Under the pieces are notes generated by a model. That model was not told the DNA's origin and ran no database searches. It saw only the letters and a list, made by a program, of their open reading frames with translations. Position numbers and translations under genes: made by a program. A stretch of DNA of 64,000 bases, from assembly GCA_001574975.1 (NCBI GenBank), contig KQ965736.1, positions 662,910 to 726,909 of the forward strand. The letters run 5' to 3'. Below, in pieces: positions 11,003 through 64,000 of this stretch (position 1 is the first letter of the stretch; every line of letters begins with the position of its first letter). The stretch is from Gonapodya prolifera JEL478 (lineage: Eukaryota > Monoblepharomycota > Monoblepharidomycetes > Monoblepharidales > Gonapodyaceae).

Positions 11003-14000
11003 TTAATCTTGGTAATCGTCCATGTTAACTTCCACGATTTTCTCAGTGACTTCGAGAGATCCTATCGCGCCTATAACTGGCACTGTATCTGCCTCCGACC
11101 AAGTCGGTAATGAGAGAGGTCACAATTTTGCAAATGTTATGGCCATTTGCGCTATGAACTCACCCCTCAACATGCCCTCCCAGCTTTTCGAGGAACATAC
11201 GTTCAAAAGATGGAAAGAAGAGTAAGAAGAAATAGAAACTTACAGGTTCCAGATTCCCTCCCCTGCTTTGGTTTCCGTCGAATGGACCTTGAGTGCTCTG
11301 CCGTGGACATCAGCCTTCGCCAATGCCTCGAGCACAACCTCATTGAGGACTGAATCGGATGTCCAAGATGTACTGCCAATATTACCCAGAACCTCGGAAA
11401 GTGTCACACCCCGCTGTTGTTTACTGCTCGACATCCCGGATTTTGTAGTAGGTGCGGCGGACAAAGCTTGCTTGACGCATAGCAAATGAATAACACCAAT
11501 CTGAAAAATGCAGAACAAAACCGAGGTTCCCAGGATTGGGATGACAGGATTGGCGTCGAGCAACCCTTGAATGAGTTTCGTGCACGAATTCGCAATCTCC
11601 ATGCAAGGCAGAAAATTGGTACTGCCGACCCTGAACACCGGTTTTTTTGGGGACAGCATGAGCGACATCTCTGCAGAGGAGCTCACCAGGCAACGTCATC
11701 CAAGAAATTGCGTGTTCTCGGGCCAAGCGGTACGATCCAAGTGGAATAAACCATGATCGCCAGCACCGCAACCGGGAAAGACACATTGGAATCACGATCG
11801 TTGTTGGTATTGAACCAACCTTCGTAGATGTGCTTTCGTCCCTTCAAGGAATCGTCTGAAGACATCAATCGCACACAAGCGGGAAAAGCCTACAAGGTTA
11901 GAGCGTGAAGTTACCGGGAAGGACCATGATCAGTGGAGACCCACATCGAGGAGTCTCCTAGAGACTTCGTGTAGCACCATGGTTCCAACTTCATTCGCAA
12001 CCGTCGATCCACCATAAGGTGGGTAACCAATTGTGAGCCCAAGCACAACTCGACACTGCTTCGCCATTCCAATGAAAAGAAGCCAAAATTCGTCACGGGT
12101 GTCTTCCCCCGAAAGAGTCGCCGAATCCAAAAAAAGGGGAGGATCTGCCAAAACAACCCAACTTGGGCGATTCGGAGGAGGAGAGGTCGGTGGGGGTTCA
12201 AGATTGAAGTGTGATTCACGGCAAGGAAGGAAAAGATTGGGTTGTGAGTCCGATAAGAAGGGTGGTGATTTCGAGCCCATGCCAATGATGGAATCCGTAC
12301 ACCAACACCACCTTACCACATCAGATTGATTTTACTTTTCTGGACCTGAACAAAGAAATGTCAGAAGACGTACCACCAAGCTCTGCGCCGTTCTTCCTTC
12401 TCGATCCAATCCATAGAAGATGGGTGATCTACTTCCTTGGCCAAGTTCATCGCCTGTGCAATCACAATTGTACCTTTGAACCACTACCGAGAATGTGATG
12501 TGTTTAGATCATTTGCAACCATAACGCCTGCCAAATAGAGCCCACCGATTGCCCTGTGACACCACGCCCCATATCCCCCATGATGAACGTGGTCCATAGA
12601 ATGATTCCTTGGAGAGAGGCCAGACTTCCCCTTCCACCTTCCTTGACTCTATCAACGGCCCATCCTAAAAGTCGGGACGCCCGTTTCGCAAAAAGTGGAC
12701 GAATAGCAGCACATGCCGGGTGATTTCGGCATCCAATGCAGAGAACACATAGAAGGAGAAACGGATCTGCGTGCCCTGCCGCAAGTCGAGCGAGAAACGT
12801 GGGTTTGTGAATAATGCTGAGTGCTTTCGGGGCAAATTGAAGGTGTAGTTCCCACCAAATAGCACCTATGAGCAATTGCACACTGCTTTGTGAACAAGTC
12901 GAAATGCATACCCACCAAACAGATTTTCTCCAACTTGAGACCTTTTGAATGCCACGCAAATAATATCGTTCATCACATCGGCGCTTGGCAATGGCGGAAG
13001 ATCGTCGAACATTGAAAGTAACGGAGGAATAGAGGTTGCCATATTAAGCACTTGTGCTTTTGGGGTCATTTTAGGTACATGAAACCCTTCTAACAGTGAC
13101 TTGTTTGCAAAAGGGATCCCATAGCCAAGATCGGGCACGCACTCTGGGCGGCTCAGGACGGAGGGTTGGTTGGAAAACGGGGCTGTTGACAAGGATGCGC
13201 CGTGCCTACTGAGCTGAAGTCTTTGGGCCGATTCCGTGTCCCCAAACGCCTGAGCTGGTATGCTTAGTTGAAAAACGTGAGCAGATGGCTCAGTAGGGGC
13301 TACATGAGACTCCGACAATAGGGCATCGATCGAAAGACGGTTGGGACGACTTCCATGCGAGGTTGTGCTGGCTACATTTTCGAGAGGAGAATTGTGGTCC
13401 ATATGGCGGGCCCCGAAAAGAGGTTGCGTTGATGAAAGAATCCGATTTTGCGACTCAGAAGTTGGTATCGCCAATGGAAAACTCGTCCCAGATGGAACGA
13501 GCGCCGCTGCGTTGGAACCAAATTCAGCAGTTGCTCTGTTGACTGGGACGCCGTGGGAAGAATAGCTTGCTGGAGCCCCCCATTGATTGTGTCGATCGAA
13601 TGCATTGCGTGTCTCACCGATGGCTGCTGGATTTGTTGAAAGAGAACTTTGATCGAGGACTATTCCACCATGCATGTAAGGAGGAACGTCCACTAAATGC
13701 GATTGCAGATGATCCGCTCCAAATGTAGCACCGGGTACGATGACGGGGTGATGGAGAACGGAATGAGACGGAGGAGCTTGTAGCGACGTTGGCAATGACA
13801 GGGGATGGAATCTATTGGGTGTTGGATTCCATTCCCCACGGCGGACTCCCGTCGCACCGACTCCAGTGTCCAGATTCGGTGTTCCGTGCGGTGATTCAGA
13901 AGCGGGGCTCGGATACACTCCATACCGCACAGGCACTTCCGGAGACAGCACGGAAGCGGCAGCATACTGTGGGGTCGAACCATAGGGTGAGAAAGGAGTG

Positions 14001-15150
14001 CTATGTTCGTGGAGATGGGGTTGTCGAGAAGTGTGTGAATTCCATGTTGTGTCTAGCTGTCCACCGTGAGAGTAAGGGTGTTGTTGGGGGCTTTCACGAA
14101 AATTGTGAAGTGTGGGAAGGCCCTGAGAAGATATTGTCAGACGGGGATCGTTCAATATCCCACTGGGAACCAAAGGTAGGGAGGGTTGTTGAGGAAGCGC
14201 GAGCGCAAGAGGGGTTGAGGTAGCAGGCAGATTCGGAAGACCATATGAACCATAAGATGATGGAAGGGCTGGATGACTGGGATTTGGAGTGTAGTGTACA
14301 TTTAAAGGGGGGTGAAAGTCTTGCGACACTGGCCCAGATGGAAATGAGTCGGTGTTGTTGTACATCGGTCCTCCATTGTGTGTGTGGGCAAGCGTTGGTG
14401 GGAGATCCTGACTGGAAGGCAAAGAGAACGATGCCCGATCGCCACCGTCATGAGCGTGGATGCTGTTCTGTCTCCGATGGGAGCTCAGCTCCAATGGCGC
14501 AGGCAAGTTCGCTAGATGATAGGGGGGAGGATCTTGGTTTCCGGACGTAATTGGCGAAATCGAGTTCTGAGATCCTTGTGGATTAGCGTCCAGCGTGGTG
14601 CGGTCGTCATAATAGATGGCACGTGCTAGTCGTCGACGCTTTGAAATTGATTCCGACAGTTAGACCAAGCGCAACATTAAGCATCCCTGTCGCAAACCCC
14701 CATCCTGACGACCCTCGGCAACTCCACCTCCTTTTACGCGTCCCCGAATTATTTTGCTAAGCTGTAACGTTCCACAAGCCAAGCTCGACCTTCATTGTAC
14801 TGACCTTCCTCCCGGATCTCTCGGAAAGTGGGTCTGGAGGTGGTCCTCGAGGTTTCTGAACCCATTGATAGTCACAAACGAGGTCCCTCGTTTCACAGTA
14901 CGTGCACCTCGGTTGGCGCGCATCGCATCTGGCACAATGGGTGTAGGGGTTGAACTTGATCATCCACGTTGACCCCCGAGGGCTGCCTCATAGCTCACTT
15001 GGTTTTAGCCCTCCTGCATGTCATACACGCCTTGGACACTTTCTCCGTGTGCCTTCCGTGGGCAGAAATAAACCGCACCGGCAATCCGTCGATAACCTCT
15101 GCTTTCCGCTTTCCAGCTTCTTCTGTGTCGATCGACTCCCGGTCATCCAT
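11003..15150 (-). CDS. Zn2Cys6 transcription factor with fungal-specific domain
   Basis: The Zn2Cys6 cluster near the N-terminus is split by an intron: KVSKACMTCRRAKTK ends one exon and CDARQPRCTYCETRDLVC starts the next, so the six cysteines have normal spacing. A long, mostly disordered exon (Ser/Pro/His-rich, about 14500-12920) leads to the Fungal_trans region: ALSIIHKPTFLARL, ADPFLLLCVLCIGC, then EKEERRRAWWWCWCTDS across a splice, the usual 'RRRAWW' signature. The end is built from short exons finishing with NMDDYQD at 11003. The start chosen is the ATG at 15150 just upstream of the cluster; a longer N-terminus is possible. Exon joints between about 11900 and 11650 are not settled. It is a DNA-binding nuclear regulator; the target genes are unknown. 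Confidence 0.85.
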
Positions 15151-29012: not shown

Positions 29013-31026
29013 CTACAATTTACCAGCCCCCTTCACCTTTCCCTCAGCAGACACAACTCCCCGCTCCATGTACTGAATGGCCTGCTTGTTCAAGTTGGGA
29101 ACCATGGCAGCGTACGCCTGGGCAAAGGTGCTCGACGCCTAAGTTGAAATTATAATGAGCGTGGCTCCTTCCCATCGACAGGCTAAGACGCCAAATTAAG
29201 ACCCACCTGACCACGAGCTTCACGGACAGCAATGCCCTGCATAATCACCGCGGACTTGAGGCGGGAGAAGCACCTGAGCGCAAATCAAATGGGTGATTCA
29301 GTTTTCACACAACTGCACAAATCACACACTCTTGTGTCAAACCCACATGCAAAAATCCCAAACGCCCCAAACGCCATCAACGCTCCTTCCAGCCTCGTTC
29401 GCGTAGGCCTTCATGTAGGCCACGGCGTCGTGCTCCTCGAATCCAGGCCCCCGGTTCAGGGCAGGCGACGAGGAGCTGAGCGCACCCCCCGCGACGGGGT
29501 TGTTGAAGAATGGGGACAGGAGGGTAGCCAGGTCCGCCAGAGGGTCTGAAAGCGCGCGAGGTGAGACACTGAGGTCGCAAGGTGTGGTAAGGGTGAAGTG
29601 TCACGTGTGACTCACGACCAATGGTGCTCAATTCCCAGTCCAGGATCCCGACGATGCGGGGCTCCGTGTTGTGAACAATGACGTTGTGCAGGGACGAGTC
29701 TCCGTGAACGATGGCAACCTATTTCGAAAACGGATGGAAACGCGAAGACGATCGACATGTGAAATGGCACTCCGATATTATCCAGTCCGGTCCGCAACGT
29801 ACCTCGTCCTTAAGCATGTTCTTTTGCAGCCACGACACAATCTCATCGAACCGCTCGATCTGCGGCACGAGTTTGCCGTTGGGGTACTTAACCGTGCGCT
29901 GGGCGGCGTGGATCTGGGACCACGTTTTGAGCTGGCGCGGGTAAAAGTCGCCTGCGGGCGGGTCACAGTCGCGGTCAGGGCAGGAGGTCATAGGGGTAGT
30001 TGTATCATGGGTAGGTGGGAGGACGCACCGATTTTGTGGAACCCCTTTTGACCTGCAAGTCCGCACCCGCGAGGATCGACCTTGTGCATGCGGGCGAATG
30101 TGCGGGCGCATGAAATGTAGCTGTTCAAGAGAAAGATACGGGTGGGGGAGGGTAGGGCGGGGGCGGTTCCAAAGAGAGTTGGGGAAGTCTACCGCGCTCA
30201 CATTTCGCGTCTGTCCTGGGCCGGCACTTTGAGCAATCTGCTGTCCGTGAAAATCCGGCCTTCGATAAAGTCCATGACGTAGAACTGTGGTACGGAAAGG
30301 AGGACATTTGGTGAAGGGGAAGGGTATCGCTGTTCCTTCAGACGCGACGCGTACCATGGCTCCGGCAACGCTGCGGTCCTCCTCCAAGAAGTAGACTTTG
30401 GGCACGGGAAGTGTTGTGTTGTTGCAGAGGGCGGAAAGGACACGGAATTCACGGTCCACTGTGTGGTTGTGCGAACATTTGCGTTGTCGTTCACCGTCAC
30501 ACGTGCATCAACAACCTTGCAATCTCGCAAACTCACCTTGGTGGGCTGTTTCAGACACAAGCTCTCCTGGCGGCTTCCTCCGCACCACCATGGCGCGGCC
30601 CTTCGCGTCCGTGATTTTAAAAGTTGGGTTGCCTGGAACATCGAACAGGAATTGATTGGTTGAGCGGCGTAACCCGGGTCCCCAATGGGTAGGACAAACT
30701 CACTTTGGCCGCTTGCGAATTTCTTGACTTTCACTGAAAGCGGAAGTCAAAGAGATTGGACAGTGAGATCACTCCGGCAAAGCAAGGAGCTCGTTGCTTT
30801 CCACCCACAAGGAAGCACCAGATCTGGGATTTTGGCCTTGAGAAAGCCCGAGAGAAGGGGAACATTGATGTCTGAGATTGCATCGACGGTTTGCTGTCCG
30901 AGTTCTTTGGGATGGTGAGTGTCACAGGATCCGCGTTATGGAAAGCCAGAGGTCGGAATTTTAGGTCTGTAAAATGTGTGGGCAGGAGAGGGAGCGCGTA
31001 CCAGGGACGTCTGAGAATTCCGCCAT
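29013..31026 (-). CDS. ACAD10/11-type aminoglycoside-phosphotransferase-fold kinase
   Basis: Twelve exons join in phase from the ATG at 31026 to the stop at 29013 (31026-31002, 30904-30809, 30733-30704, 30632-30537, 30458-30355, 30284-30202, 30120-30029, 29951-29803, 29718-29616, 29545-29347, 29273-29207, 29138-29013), giving 389 residues. Family markers in order: [16 protein letters not shown] (nucleotide loop), [59 protein letters not shown] with catalytic D232 and N237, [17 protein letters not shown] with metal-binding D252, then a C-terminal helical bundle ([19 protein letters not shown]). In animals this domain is fused to acyl-CoA dehydrogenase in ACAD10/11, which handle 4-hydroxy acids; here it is a stand-alone protein. 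No mitochondrial presequence is obvious. Confidence 0.9.
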
Positions 31027-31132
31027 TGTAGGGAAGGGAGAAGAGCGGCCGAAACGATTCCGCGGATCCGATTCGATCAACGTTTGCCGCGGTCGACCAC
31101 AGCTACACACACGTCCCTTCACCCCGCGAAGG

Positions 31133-32731
31133 ATGCCGCTGTTGATGATGTGCGGGCTGCCGTGCAGCGGGAAAACGACGCGGGCGCTGCAGATAAAGGC
31201 GCTGCTGGAGGAAGCCGGTGAGGGGTGGACAGTCGACATCGTCAACGACGAGAGCCTGGGAATCAGAAAACAAGAGGGCTTCAAATGTGCGTTTACTCCA
31301 TCACGTCTGCTACCAGTCGTGATTTGCTCATCTTTGCGAAATGGTTGCGGTGTGGGCATCTCCACATTGTTTTCTACAACACCGAATGTACCCCCGATCG
31401 TCAGCTCCAAACGCAGAGAAGCCGACCCGCGCAACGCAATTTTCCACGCTCGAGCGCCAACTGACCTCGGACCCGCGCCGCATCCTCATCTCGGACTCCA
31501 TGAACTACGTCAAGGGATTTCGATACCAAATGCACACACTCGCAAAGAACCATTCCATACCGACAGCCGTCGTTTGGTGCGCAACGGACCAGCCCACGTG
31601 CACGCAGTGGGATTCGTCGAGAGAGGCCGGCTACGGAGAAGAGATGTGAGTTCGAGGTGAGGAGACCAGCCGTCACAGGTCGAGCGACGGAGGCCTGCGA
31701 GCACAGCGAGCCCGAGGCCTAAGCGCTGCTAGGCGCTGACCGAGGAGTCAGCCGGAGGCAAGTGACTTGCGGACAACTCGCATTTCATACTCTCGCGGAG
31801 CGAATGTCGGACCGAGGGACAGGGCGCGCCATGGAATGGAGAATGGCATGGGACCAATGACGGCATGGAAAGTCGTGGGCTCACGGAGGATGCCATGAGA
31901 CCAGTGACGACATGTTGAGTCGCCGGTGTATCTCAACCACTTGACCGACCGACGAGTCTCTCCTTCCAGCCTCACATCCCTCGCCATCCGCTTCGAAGAG
32001 CCCGACGGCCGCGCCCGGTGGGACTCTCCGCTCATCACCATCCTTCCGTCCGACGAATTACATCCCGTCTCCGAGGACCCCGAGGGATCGTTCGCCCGGA
32101 TCGTTCGCGCCATCGCGGGCGGCAAGGCGGTGAAGCCCAACCTCGCCGTCGTTAAAGTGAGTACGGCGCGTCGCACGCGCGCCTGAATGTTTTCTCCTAC
32201 TGATGCTGTGTCACCATTGCATATTCGCTCTCGTTCTGATGTCTGTGTCAATACCCGACTCCGTCCCCGCACAAGAAACAAGCTCCCGACTCCACCCTCC
32301 TCCCCCTCCTCGACCGCGCCACCACCTCCGTCATCTCATCCATACCCGCCTCCCACACCACGCTCTCATCAACACCACCAACAGCCGTTTCCGTCAGTGT
32401 GCCCGGCTCCTCCATCGACCTCGACCTGCCCGACCGCCACGTCAGCATGTCGGAGCTGCGACGATGGAAGAACACGTGGATCGGGCTCGTGGGGCGCGGG
32501 AAGATGCCCGCACGGGTCGCGGACGTGGTGAAAGGGGGGTCGAGCGGCGACGCGGCGTCTGCGACTGGGGCCGGCGGTGGCGGCGGCGGCAGCGGCGCGA
32601 GCAGTGGCAAGCCTGTGCCGATGGACTCGAAACAGGCGGCGGACGAAACTGTTGCGCGCGCGGCCGAGGCGTTTGTGAAGTACCTGAATGACAATTTGGG
32701 CAGTCCTGGGACTAGTGGGGCTGTAGGCTAG
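31133..32731 (+). CDS. KTI12: Kti12-like Elongator-associated P-loop protein
   Basis: Regulatory partner of the Elongator complex, which modifies wobble uridines of tRNAs. Four exons join in phase (31133-31286, 31405-31645, 31970-32156, 32276-32731), giving 345 residues. The N-terminal P-loop is CGLPCSGKTT (residues 7-16). The kinase-like core continues with ILISDSMNYVKGFRYQMHTLAK, matching the DSLNYIKGFRYEL signature. The C-terminal domain shows SLAIRFEEPDGRARWDSPL and SELRRWKNTWIGL followed by a glycine/serine-rich linker and a final helix. A stray GC-rich hairpin cluster lies in intron 2. The gene starts 107 bp from the divergent phosphotransferase gene, so the two probably share control sequence. 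Confidence 0.93.
31690..31770. repeat. Cluster of consecutive hairpins inside Kti12 intron 2
   Basis: Within the 324-nt intron 31646-31969, three stems follow one another: AGCGC 31722-31726 with GCGCT 31733-31737; GCTGAC 31735-31740 with GTCAGC 31747-31752; GCAAG 31758-31762 with CTTGC 31766-31770. The heptamer GAGGCCT also occurs twice (about 31690 and 31714). The first two stems overlap and exclude each other. The origin is unknown: it could be a fragment of a repeat family or a structured intronic RNA. Confidence 0.4.
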
Positions 32732-39682: not shown

Positions 39683-41121
39683 ATGGAGGCGGAGGCAGAA
39701 AAGGCCCCGCGGCATGTCGGCGTGACCTGCTCACACTGCGAATCGGTGGATTTCGAAGGCGTTCGGTGGAAATGGTGAGTCACAGAGCTTCACATCAGCT
39801 TCACGATCTCAAAATCCCACTCATCCCACAGCCTTGAATGCCCAGCCTACGATTTGGCAAGTTGCTCGCGATTAACTGTAACAGCGCTCCACCACAACTC
39901 ACGTCGTACCCTCATCTCAGTGTGGAACATGCGAGCGATTTTCAAGCCTGCTTCACCCCACGACTCACAGCTTTCTCAAACTTGCCCGACCAGGTCCTGT
40001 TCCCAACTTGGGTGTTTTCCTCCCACAAGCAACGCCATCCGATCCTCCACCGCTCAGTCATGACGACAGCGATGACGGGGTGGACTTTGTTGCTCTACCA
40101 GATACCGCGTCGATCCAACGTATGCCAACAAAGCGTGAGCTCTTTCGTCTTCTGGAGGAGGAGGAACGGAAGCGCTTTTCTCCCCGGATTCAAGCGCTCT
40201 ACCTAGAAGCCGAGTCTGACCCGGGGAAGGGCCGTGACTGGCTGACGGTGACGGAGCAGATGCAAGCAGACCTCGTGAGGGAGTTTGGATTTGGCGTGGG
40301 GGCAGTGCAGCTGCTGCGGCGAGCGGCGATAATGTACAAAGGTGCGCAAGTTTGCATTGTTTCGGAAATTGCAAAGCTCTTAACTCCTGTCCGCAATCTC
40401 AGACGACCCAGCTTTCCAAAACGTGTCAGTGTACGTGCGAGAAAACCGTGCGAGAGCGGGAAACCTCCGAACAGGGGACTTGGCACCGGATGTGCCACTC
40501 CTCACACTCGAACTAGTGGAAACTTCAACGGGAACAGTCTTTGGCACAGGGCAGCGACCTGTGGTTGTTGTTGCCGGGAGTTATACATGACCTCCGTTCC
40601 GAGGCGCGGTGGAGCTCCTTAAGGTTCGTCTCGTGCGTTTAACAAAGCCGCAGCGTCTCACCACTCTTCCCCCTTCTGGGCGACCCCTGAATGAACAGGA
40701 TCTGCGTCACAGCTACCGCGCCTCGTGCGATTTTGCTACAATCTATATCTTGGAGGCACACGCCAACGACGTGTGGCCGAACGGCAACGTGGTTAGCATC
40801 CCGGTAAGTTTTGTATTCCTCCTTTGTGCACTAAGAGTCGGTGCTTACATGCAAGCAACTTACCTCTAGCGTCACCGGACTGCCACGGACCGACAGAAAG
40901 CCGCCCTCTCCTTTATCCACGAGTACCAGTACACCATTCCGGTCTTCCTCGACACACTCACTGACGAATTTGAGAAGCAGTACGCACCGTGGCCGTTCCG
41001 CTTCTATATTGTCCGCGAGGGCAGACTGGCGTTTGTAGGGGTGCCCAAGGAGGGGACCTACGACACTGGCGAGGTGGTGGATTGTCTGGCAGAATTGGCG
41101 TGCTTTCCAGAGGCCCGCTGA
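39683..41121 (+). CDS. ZZ-finger/deiodinase-like protein with in-frame TGA (selenocysteine candidate)
   Basis: Six exons (39683-39774, 39832-39856, 39921-40341, 40403-40623, 40699-40803, 40870-41121) give 371 residues if TGA 40588-40590 is read through. Residues 11-57 are a ZZ zinc finger: C16, C19, C31, C34, C40, C43, H51 and H55, with the typical tail HPTTHSFLKLARP. After an acidic linker and a helical region comes an iodothyronine-deiodinase domain. VVVVAGSYT is followed by TGA (residue 242) and PPFRGAVELLK, the deiodinase active-site context GSxTUPPF, where U is selenocysteine. Beyond it FATIYILEAHANDVW matches the IYIEEAHASDGW motif, then IPVFLDTLTDEFEKQY and FRFYIVREGRLAFVG complete the thioredoxin-like fold. 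Deiodinases are selenoenzymes that remove iodine from aromatic rings; relatives outside animals probably have other redox substrates. Intron 2 is GC-AG. No cysteine alternative or splice that skips the TGA is visible. Confidence 0.88.
39857..39920 (+). other. GC-AG intron within the ZZ finger
   Basis: The 64-nt intron starts GCAAGT, the usual extended consensus of GC donors, and ends CATCTCAG. It is phase 0. Splicing here supplies residues C40 and C43 and the two histidines of the ZZ finger; reading on without it gives no ligands in the right places. Confidence 0.75.
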
Positions 41122-41163
41122 AATTTCTTGGAATTTTTTGGAGAAGGAGAGAAGGAGAGTTGC

Positions 41164-41270
41164 CAACCGCACATGACGGCTTGTCGTCGTTTTAAAACAC
41201 CGTTGCCTATCGCTCGGACGGGACCCGTCGTGGTACCGGAGACGACGTGCCTGAGAACTTTACCGGCTTG
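41164..41270 (+). promoter_or_regulatory. Candidate SECIS element in the 3' UTR
   Basis: Starts 43 nt after the stop of the ZZ-deiodinase gene. A lower stem CAACCG 41164-41169 pairs with CGGCTTG 41264-41270 (one bulge). The SECIS-like core is ATGA 41173-41176 opposite TGA 41252-41254. The upper stem is GGC 41178-41180 with GCC 41249-41251 and GTCGTC 41183-41188 with GACGAC 41241-41246, around two weak central pairs. An AAAA run (41194-41197) lies in the apical part. The apical part (52 nt) is larger than in classical SECIS, and a competing hairpin (CGTCGT/ACGACG at about 41227-41247) exists, so this is only a candidate. Confidence 0.35.
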
Positions 41271-41530
41271 CGTGACACGCTTTTTTCTTGTATCCAGTGA
41301 ATAAAATTGATACTCATGCGATGCAATCTTCAATTGGCGTTTGTCTGAATGAGCAGGCTAGTGTGCTTTCATCGCCATTTCCCAACACTCTTCACCATCT
41401 CTTGCTCCCGGCTCGTCTCCCGATTGTTACATTGTGTTTGAGTCAATGTTTTGTGAAGATGTGATCACAACTTTCACCACAAGAAGCTGTGGCCACTAGT
41501 TCGCCGACATCGAACATCCAAGCTTTTTCG
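41271..41530. other. Intergenic, 3' end and promoter
   Basis: Holds an AATAAA-like signal (about 41301) after the candidate SECIS, consistent with a 3' UTR of roughly 200 nt, then the promoter of the PUB-domain gene. No gene seen. Confidence 0.5.
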
Positions 41531-60373: not shown

Positions 60374-63300
60374 TCAAGCATCCCCACGGGCACCACTAGT
60401 CCGAGGTCCCGGCACAGTCCTCGGGTCCCGTTCAAATGACCTGTTCTCACGATCTAGCGATGACGCGGATGCACTCCTTCCGAACAACGTGAATGGCCGT
60501 GCCGTCCCATCGTAAGAAGGGTCCGGGTCGACGCCTCCCTCGGCTTCAGCGGCTCGTTTGGCAAGGAATGCCCGTCCCGCCCGAGACATAGTTTTTGTTA
60601 GCATGGCTGCACGGCTTGCATCAACAGGGATGTGAACAGTTTTGAGTGAATCAATGTCCCGCTCGAGCTTCATGATTTTAATGCGAGATTTTTGGGACGT
60701 GGATGTAAGCTCAACATTGTCCTGGTGGGAGACTTTCAGTCCTGGAGCAGGAGCACTGAACCCATCTCTTTTACGTACCTTTTTCAGCTTTAGATTCTCA
60801 CGCTTCAAGTTATCCACGTACCGAATCTTCTGCTTGAGGTTCTGGTGGCCCATCAGCTTGGCATAAGACTCGGCAGCCTCCCGCGCCTCGTTTTCGGCGA
60901 GGTTGTTCTTTTGGAGCAGAAGAGCGAGGCGGTCAGAAAGGCTATCCTCGAAGTTCATCCGTTCCTCTTCGATCTCCCTAATCTTTGCATTGAGACTGTG
61001 CGACAGAGTATCAGACAACAGAATATATGAGCTTAAATATGAATTCAATCTGAAGGGGATTTAGGCTCACCTTTCTATCTCCTGGTGCAACTGAATGTTC
61101 TGTGTCTCCAACTGCTCAGCCAGACGCATCGTTGCCTCAACCGCAGCTGCGTCTCTCGCTCGAGCCGTCGCTTCGTGCAACAGAGCTGCTATTTCGTCCT
61201 GCAACTTTCCTTTCTCAGCCGCAATCTGTTCGTAAGCATGGTTGAGGTTATTGTATGCCTCATTCAGCTCCTGCAACTGCCTTCGAAGCTCATCATTCAG
61301 CTGCTCCAACTTTTGAATTTGCTCTCGAATACCATCCTGACCCGCCTGTTTTCCGAGCGACTCCTTTAGTTGGTCACGTTCGCGAGAAACTCGGGTCAGC
61401 TCCAAAATGAGCCTGGCACTCGTCTCCTTTTCGCCTTTCAGGGCATCGTCAAGTTCTGCGTTCTTGGCGATCAGATCGTCCAGCTCCCGCTCTAGTTGCT
61501 GTCGTTCCTCCTGAGCCTTTGTCTTCTCCGCCTCCAATTCGGCCAAAATCTGGTTGAGACCCGCTTGATCCTTCTCCAGGGCATTCTGAAGCTGACGGAT
61601 TCGCGCATCACGGTCTGCAATTGCCTTTTCCGCCTGTTGAAGCCTGTTGACTAATTCTTGTAACTTTCGTCGAGCTGAGTCAAGATCTGGCTCCAATGCC
61701 GATCGACGAGTCTCAGAAGATCTCAAAGCTTCTCTTAACTTTGCAACTTCCTCTCCCGAAATCGCTCCCGCTTTTGAAATAGCTTCATCCCTCGCAAGCA
61801 GTGCATCTTTAAGTTCGAACGCAAGGTTCGCCAGCTCGTCACGTAATCGCTGAATGTCATTGTCCTTTTCGGTGAGAACCTTCGTCACTTCATCTGCTAG
61901 TTGACTCATCTCGGAAGTGAGATTTGCGATTTCTGCGTCCTTCGCGGCAAGATCGGCTTGCGAATGTGCAGAAGCTCTCTTAAGTTCCTCCGCAAGCAAA
62001 TCCCGCTTGGAGGCAGCTTCTCGGAGAGCTCCCTCAATATCTCTCAATCGTCGTCGGAGATCTTCCACTGTTTCGTCACGGTCGCGAAGGGCTGCTTCTG
62101 TATCTCTGAGGCGGGATTGCAGAGAGGCAATTGTTTCGGAATGAGCCTTCTTCGTGGCAGCAAGAGCCGCCTCAAGCTCCCTGATGCGTCGTTCCATATC
62201 AGCTAAGTCATCAGCGTGGGCTTTGGCATCCCGTTCTCTTCCTGAATGGGACTCCGACAGGAGACGTTCGAGACGGACAACAATTTCCTCCTTCTGCCGA
62301 GCTGTGTCGCCAGCTTCTCCAGCAGTTGCCTCCAGATCTCGCAGTTGGCGTTGAACAATGCTTACTGTTTCTTGATGTCGTCGAGAGTTGGCGTCTGACC
62401 GATCTAGAGCAAGCTTATACTCCGCAGCGGCATCTTCAGATTCTCGTCGAATGCGGCGCAATTCATCCTCCAAAGTGTGAGTGCGACTTTCTGAGCCACG
62501 TAACGCTCCTTTCAGCCGAGTAAGTTCAGCTTCCAGTTCATGAATGTGAGCGTTCGACGAATCTAGGTCAGTGGCAGCCCGATTAGCCGCGTCTTTTAAC
62601 TTTGCTTCCGTGGCAGACAAATGGCGCCTTAATGTATCCAGCTCTGCAGTTGCCGCAGCAAGACGAGCGGAGAGATCCGCCATTGCCGACTGTTGTAGTC
62701 GCGCGCGTTAAAATCCATATTTACAATACAGAATTAAAATTCTCACCTCGTTTTCATGGAGCACCTGCTGCCTCTCCACTGTCACTTTCTCAACAATTTC
62801 CCTCGAGTGTCGATTGACCTTCTCGACGACCTCTCTCTGTTCTGTCCTCGCCTTATCTGCCTCCTCTCTCGCTTCCCTGAGACCTTCTTCCAAATGAGCG
62901 ACCCGCTCACCGGCCTCTTTTGCAGTGCCTTCCATTCTCCCACGAGCAGCATCCAGGTCTCTTCGAATTGCAGCAATGTCCGAGTCACGTTCGGCCAGCA
63001 ATCTCTCGACTTCGATCTTTTCGGCATTTGCCTGCTCTGCTTTGTCCAGCGCCTCCTGTGCAAGCTGATTTACCTCTTCTAAGCGAGACTGTGTAGAAAT
63101 TTGTTCTTCTTCTATCTTTTTAATGAATTCGTCTCGTTCATCGAGAGCAACATCTTGCTCTTTGATGTGCTCGTCCCGGGCACTCACTGCAGCCTGCATT
63201 TCGTCTGAACGACCGAGAGCCTCCTCGAGTTGTGCCTCAAGATCCCTGTGCTGTAGCGTTGATTCCTCCAAAGTGCTTTCAAGGTCCCTTATTTTAGATT

Positions 63301-64000
63301 CCGCATCTTCCAAAGCTCCTTCAAGTTCACGAAGTCGAGACTCTTTTTCTTCCGACACAGGGAGAGCCTCACTAAGCCGTCCTTCCGCCTCTTTCAAGGA
63401 CGCCTCAAGTTCGCCAATGCGCTTGGAACGGATACGCAATTGCTCGTTCAAGTTTGCAAGTTGACTCTCGCCTTTGTGGATGACAGCTTGCAGTTCCGCC
63501 ATCAGAGTATCACGTTGCGAAACATCATCCTGTAATGTCTTGACTGTTCGGCTCCGATCTTCTAACGCGGGTGTGAGTTTCTTGACATGACCTTCCAGAT
63601 TTTCCAAGGCACTTTCAAGCGCCTGAATGCGGGTATCTCGCTCATCGAGTCCATGGGTGAGGTCGTTGACGTGAACGCCATGCTCTTGTAGGGATGCATT
63701 GAGTCGCTTGATGGATGAATCCTTTTCATCTAAATCGTGCTTAAGTTTCTCCATCTGGACATTCCGATCTTCTAAGAGCAATTGCAGCTCCTTTGTCTGA
63801 CCCTCCAAGTCTTCAATGGTGCTACTTTGCGATTTGATGGAGTCCTCTTGTTGATCGAGGGTCTCCTCTAGCTGCTTCATAATGGAATCACGTTCCGTAA
63901 CAGCCGCCGAGAGCTCGGCGATACGGCCTTCCAACTGGTCCAACTCGCCTTCCAGTCTTGCGATGATTCCATCTCTTTCAACCAAAGCGTCTTCCAGCTC
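60374..64000 (-). CDS. HMMR/RHAMM-like long coiled-coil protein (partial)
   Basis: The gene enters from beyond the right edge, so the N-terminus is missing. On the minus strand: exon to 62748-62747, then 62689-61071, 60995-60779 and 60721-60374, all in phase; about 1130 residues are in the window. Nearly all is continuous heptad coiled coil. The part nearest the edge is a degenerate repeat of about 28-37 residues, each unit opening (D/E)xRDxxI (for example ERDGIIARLEGELDQLEG, DERDTRIQALESALENLEG). Near the C-terminus AAESYAKLMGHQNLKQKIRY and VDNLKRENLKLKK match the HMMR C-terminal domain of RHAMM, which binds centrosomes, microtubules and dynein partners. A Ser/Arg tail follows. The intron at 60778-60722 is a multiple of three, so it could be retained. 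In a zoosporic fungus a centriole/spindle-pole role is plausible. Confidence 0.82.

Follow-up and report, generated by a model that had tools for sequence, protein, structure and literature searches.

Homologs of the membrane-anchored animal deiodinases (PMC9141512) that contain selenocysteine (Sec) are known from algae (PMC7539508) and bacteria (PMC13188914), and Dictyostelium encodes a deiodinase-like selenoprotein, likewise a Sec-containing homolog in a non-animal eukaryote (PMC2375036). Fungi were earlier reported to have no selenoproteins (PMC2375036), and most are described as not using Sec (PMC10778597). Mariotti et al. 2019 reported that nine species of early-branching fungi use Sec, as cited in PMC12611240, PMC10778597, and PMC7988114, and for Zancudomyces both the Sec machinery and its expression have been reported (PMC12611240). 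A survey of annotated fungal proteomes that found no Sec residue disputes the report of Mariotti et al. (PMC7988114), and Gonapodya is listed in the same source as a Sec-using fungus. Annotation, however, would be expected to treat UGA as a stop.

Here we describe a gene in a 64-kb stretch of DNA (64,000 nucleotides; the window) that very probably encodes a fungal selenoprotein, in which a ZZ zinc finger precedes a deiodinase-type enzyme with Sec at residue 242 encoded by UGA. Selenoproteins of this kind are already known, in that Sec use in early fungi has been published; the ZZ fusion is unusual. Among the literature matches listed there was no ZZ-fused fungal deiodinase, which is weak evidence, as the gene may be reported elsewhere. 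The coordinates of the gene, its protein domains, the candidate RNA element downstream, and one neighboring gene are collected in Table 1.

Table 1. Features of the gene with the in-frame TGA, of its 3′UTR, and of a neighboring gene, in window positions.
Feature	Position	Strand	Basis
KTI12 gene, relative of the Sec kinase PSTK	31133-32731	+	hand-spliced, 3.4e-60
Six-exon gene	39683-41121	+	CDS 1116 nt, 371 residues, splice sites picked by eye
Exon 1: start codon plus the initial part of the ZZ zinc finger	39683..39774	+	gene model
ZZ-type zinc finger, residues 11-45, spanning two introns	39713..39938	+	Pfam PF00569, 3.7e-9
Exon 2 (25 nt)	39832..39856	+	gene model
GC-AG intron, second of the gene, 3′ of exon 2	39857-39920	+	gene model
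Exon 3: remainder of the ZZ finger, then the linker	39921..40341	+	gene model
Exon 4: GSYT-TGA-PPFRGAVELLK	40403..40623	+	letters and gene model
Deiodinase (thioredoxin-fold) domain, residues 201-361	40465..41088	+	Pfam PF00837, 9.1e-26
In-frame TGA, residue 242 of 371, predicted selenocysteine, next base C (UGAC)	40588..40590	+	letters, gene model, alignments
Exon 5: deiodinase active-site residues Y269, E272, H274, W279	40699..40803	+	gene model and alignment
Exon 6: H290, R296, end of deiodinase domain	40870..41121	+	gene model and alignment
Terminal TGA stop	41119-41121	+	gene model
Candidate eukaryotic SECIS	41156..41261	+	letters, pattern scans, folds; no Rfam match
SECIS candidate: possible helix I, AGAGUU/AACUUU, six pairs	41156-41161/41256-41261	+	letters
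SECIS candidate: AUGA	41173-41176	+	letters
SECIS candidate: helix II, 10 of 11 pairs, one U-U mismatch	41178-41188/41241-41251	+	letters
SECIS candidate: AAAA, in apical bulge	41194-41197	+	letters
SECIS candidate: mini-stem	41200-41207/41232-41239	+	letters
SECIS candidate: UGAG	41252-41255	+	letters
AATAAA polyadenylation-like signal, 3′ of SECIS candidate	41300..41305	+	letters

An initial annotation of this DNA had pointed to a TGA lying between AGSYT and PPFRGAVELLK and to IYILEAHANDVW downstream of it; the letters and our gene model contain both as described. The frame does stay open for 129 codons past this TGA, and the 371-codon model holds zero further stops or frame damage. Its introns are 57 to 75 nt long. 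The two introns that follow the TGA had both been called clean, a description that fits the one at 40804-40869 (GTAAGT...TAG) but not the fourth intron, 40624-40698, which has a weak donor (GTTCGT) and whose retention would keep the frame open. We took this fourth intron as spliced because of the spacing to Dio3 and Dio2 and because the Pfam score is higher with the intron spliced (61.8 bits) than with it retained (56.8 bits). An intron removing the TGA itself was rejected by reasoning: in homologs the site is flanked directly by GSYT and PPF, and an intron of normal size would take this conserved motif too. GC3 is 0.564 before the TGA and stays high after it, at 0.729, compared with a GC of 0.498 for the introns and 0.487 for the 3′UTR, a pattern that would be expected if translation covers both sides.

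Homology likewise extends across the TGA. With the TGA codon written as C, the protein matches PF00837 at 91 bits (cut-off 27); the ZZ finger matches PF00569 at 36.7 bits (cut-off 21.4), and its nearest solved structure is the HERC2 ZZ domain. The 129 residues after the TGA (243-371) match PF00837 by themselves at 7.8e-17, in keeping with the earlier claim that the active-site half is conserved past the stop. The best solved-structure matches of the protein are Dio3 (4tr3, 1.5e-15) and Dio2 (9h48, 7.6e-11), and in this structure-sequence search residue 242 falls on the catalytic Sec/Cys of both, so the TGA does stand at the deiodinase selenocysteine position. Nine residues of Dio3 discussed in PMC7506546 (S167, T169, Sec170, Y197, E200, H202, W207, H219, and R225, with numbers assigned by counting from Sec170) have as counterparts S239, T241, TGA242, Y269, E272, H274, W279, H290, and R296. 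The eight mapped besides Sec170 are identical in the window protein and in Dio2. The alignment used for this active-site comparison combined the window protein, Dio3, and Dio2 with 79 prokaryotic relatives and one plasmid protein. "Deiodinase" should be read here as a family name drawn from sequence likeness, not as thyroid-hormone activity.

Genomes of bacteria and archaea were scanned with a profile, which yielded 259 relatives, and we kept the best 80; one locus without a readable site (L055) was dropped, and a spurious GAT match in another (L060) was ignored. Homologs were to be checked for U or C at residue 242, as the initial annotation had proposed. Among the 79 readable loci of these best 80 of 259, the active-site codon is TGA in 67, TGT in 8, and TGC in 4, such that the column holds TGA or Cys throughout. 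Any bias of the scan would run against TGA, since one of its two patterns demanded Cys at the site and the tblastn query also carried Cys there. Among plasmids one relative turned up, a Mycolicibacterium protein that is 28% identical to the TGA protein and has Cys at the site. We also searched viral contigs and phages for relatives of the TGA protein; none was confirmed in the former and none found in the latter.

We then compared these codons with the presence of the Sec synthase SelA in 40 of the 80 kept loci, hand-picked to take in all 12 Cys loci along with 28 TGA loci. SelA was found in 31 of the 40 genomes, comprising every one of the 28 with TGA and 3 of the 12 with Cys (Fisher p 8e-7, a guide only, as the test treats related genomes as independent). 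Incomplete assemblies may account in part for the lack of SelA in Cys genomes; still, TGA at the active-site codon accompanies Sec synthesis in the deiodinase-like family. One Cys deiodinase-like gene (L067), on a contig titled Euryarchaeota, is very close to two planctomycete genes and is perhaps misbinned or transferred.

The same observations bear on three other ways of explaining the TGA. In a recently broken gene, an ancestral Cys (TGC or TGT) or Sec codon would now be a stop, the Sec machinery would be lost, and the remainder would be decaying. Such a history would suit the lack of Sec use in most fungi (PMC10778597), and Rfam makes no call on the SECIS candidate considered below. However, the model shows neither a second stop nor frame damage, the domain score, GC3, and every mapped catalytic residue are kept past the TGA, and the stop falls on the exact Sec codon. 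In the model CDS with Cys at 242, 123 single substitutions would create a stop, 32 of these TGA, so a chance stop at precisely this codon is unlikely. We consider a broken gene very improbable on these grounds.

It is even harder to believe that a sequencing or assembly error has altered a real TGT or TGC codon of an ordinary Cys homolog. Cys forms do exist, in 12 of the 79 readable prokaryotic relatives and in the Mycolicibacterium plasmid protein, but a single error would have to strike the one codon where TGA has meaning, and TGA is the majority form among the best prokaryotic matches (67 of 79). Equally far-fetched is a UGA that does not encode Sec but is read through by insertion of a standard amino acid, or that deliberately truncates the product to a short ZZ protein. 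The tetranucleotide at residue 242, UGAC, is a leaky stop context and speaks for read-through, yet any standard amino acid except Cys would strip an otherwise conserved catalytic set of its chalcogen, and all 79 readable prokaryotic relatives have either TGA or Cys at this position. We conclude that the proposal of a recoded TGA in a fungal selenoprotein is very likely correct, being supported by the domain past the TGA, the relatives with TGA at the same codon, the link to SelA, the intact catalytic residues, and the fungal marker domains described below.

Downstream of the terminal stop, a stem-loop in the 3′UTR recalls the form given in a general definition of the eukaryotic SECIS (PMC11227280). 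On the mRNA its AUGA begins 444 nt past the Sec codon. The AAAA follows the AUGA by 17 nt, a spacing that exceeds that of typical SECIS elements; most fungal selenoproteins reportedly lack consensus SECIS elements. With search criteria that were set after the candidate had been seen, a strict SECIS pattern matched only once in the 64 kb, both strands included, and matched in 31 of 20,000 shuffled versions of the UTR, and looser settings gave 8 to 82 matches in the window, with 0.013-0.134 expected in the UTR. Rfam returned no SECIS match at gathering score, nor with E up to 10 over 41100-41400. The 3′UTR folds are not stabler than those of shuffled sequences (z of +1.23 for 136 nt and +0.25 for 98 nt). 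The minimum-energy structure of the 98-nt fold has helix II and the mini-stem, along with a further small hairpin at the AAAA, and those of the 136-nt and 106-nt folds differ from the SECIS shape; in the 106-nt stretch, a SECIS-shaped fold without helix I lies 1.3-2.1 kcal/mol above the minimum. We regard the stem-loop as a fair SECIS candidate and not as a finding. According to the description in PMC2375036, the SECIS of the Dictyostelium deiodinase-like gene combines a very long mini-stem with U-U mismatches that lie away from its core, and every Dictyostelium SECIS has an unpaired AAA. Compared by description, the candidate has a counterpart of each of these features: a U-U mismatch, a long mini-stem, and the AAA. 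The frame itself runs open for 60 codons past the terminal TGA (41122-41304, plus strand), to a TAA that overlaps the AATAAA, which we take as chance.

To survey the genes of the window, 50 single ORFs, drawn from 159 stop-to-stop ORFs of at least 120 residues, were compared with Pfam. Fungal-type domains occur on the minus strand at about 12350-15100, where Zn_clus matches at 1.8e-8 and Fungal_trans at 2.9e-8 on exons joined by hand, one join being approximate; before joining, Fungal_trans scored 21.5 bits, below its cut-off of 23. These Zn2Cys6 and Fungal_trans domains probably belong to one transcription factor gene, and because of them we read the window as fungal. The remaining nameable neighbors of the TGA gene are ordinary eukaryotic genes, and window GC is near 53%, which would be compatible with Gonapodya. 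PSTK was considered as a neighbor on the strength of a KTI12-type match (first seen at 30965-31657) and rejected, as the hand-spliced protein is KTI12; the NCBIfam PSTK models score 40.1 bits (cut-off 290.5) and 24.6 bits (cut-off 382.35) on this gene, far too low for a match. ARAGORN found zero tRNAs over the 64-kb window, which says little about Sec machinery. The next gene downstream of the TGA gene, from about 41531 on the plus strand, begins with a PUB domain, matched at 3.9e-16 after splicing by hand. Coiled-coil ORFs occupy 60377-64000 on the minus strand, one of which (60377-61060) matches the HMMR C-terminal at 6e-10.

The active-site alignment also bears on where the gene came from. 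At the position of Dio3 His219, the window protein, Dio3, and Dio2 all have His, which occurs in none of the 79 prokaryotic relatives (Pro in 71, Ala in 7, Thr in 1). This pattern suggests that the gene belongs to the eukaryotic branch of the deiodinase family and leans against a recent bacterial transfer. We also built a tree of 80 rows (the window protein, two Dio fragments, and 77 prokaryotic loci), omitting L055, L068, L069, and also L001. The window protein groups with the Dio pair (support 88/74) on a branch of 2.98 that carries a long-branch warning, and the tree consequently decides nothing on bacterial origin. We set a bacterial origin aside, with the residue at the His219 position pointing the other way and the tree too long-branched to prove the matter.

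In the mechanism that we propose, ribosomes most likely decode UGA 242 with Sec-tRNA and eEFSec, directed by a 3′UTR RNA element for which the stem-loop would be the candidate, and the terminal UGA would stay a stop. The U242 selenolate, together with S239, T241, Y269, E272, H274, W279, H290, and R296, would catalyze a two-electron reduction, either a reductive dehalogenation or a peroxiredoxin-like reduction of a substrate that is probably non-thyroid. The ZZ finger would probably bind a protein N-terminus or a histone-like peptide and thereby position the enzyme. A fuller picture, which we put forward tentatively as something a little short of probable, is that a ZZ finger acting as an N-degron or histone reader has been fused to a deiodinase that keeps every catalytic residue of the animal type, with decoding through a SECIS of eukaryotic type whose mini-stem is long. 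In this picture the protein would be a relic of the Sec system and deiodinase of opisthokonts, which most fungi have lost, and would act on something other than thyroid hormone.

A fungal gene whose TGA is surrounded by a complete deiodinase active site makes a clean test case. It points to the genome in which Sec machinery should be sought, supplies a candidate fungal SECIS, and poses the question of what role a deiodinase has in an organism without a thyroid. Ordinary annotation would be likely to shorten the gene, and selenium-containing enzymes, of which this is very probably one, are known from few fungi only.

Set beside the known systems, the window protein shares with animal Dio3 and Dio2 the PF00837 domain, the GSxT-Sec-PPF motif, the Y, E, H, and W residues of the active site, and the His219 position; it differs from them in being fungal, in the ZZ zinc finger and linker that stand in front, and in sequence, with 30-31% identity. 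The Dictyostelium protein is amoebal, and its description in PMC2375036, which is the basis of this comparison, mentions no ZZ finger. The bacterial deiodinase-like selenoproteins (NF038285) share the TGA codon, which is present in 67 of the 79 readable relatives from the best 80 of 259, and the window protein matches the NCBIfam model at 8e-22 and 78 bits, below its cut-off of 250; in the deiodinase domain, where the two were compared, they are unlike the window protein in having no His at the His219 position (0 of 79). With the selenoproteins of early-branching fungi, as reported from Mariotti et al. 2019, the predicted protein would share the use of UGA for Sec in a fungus.
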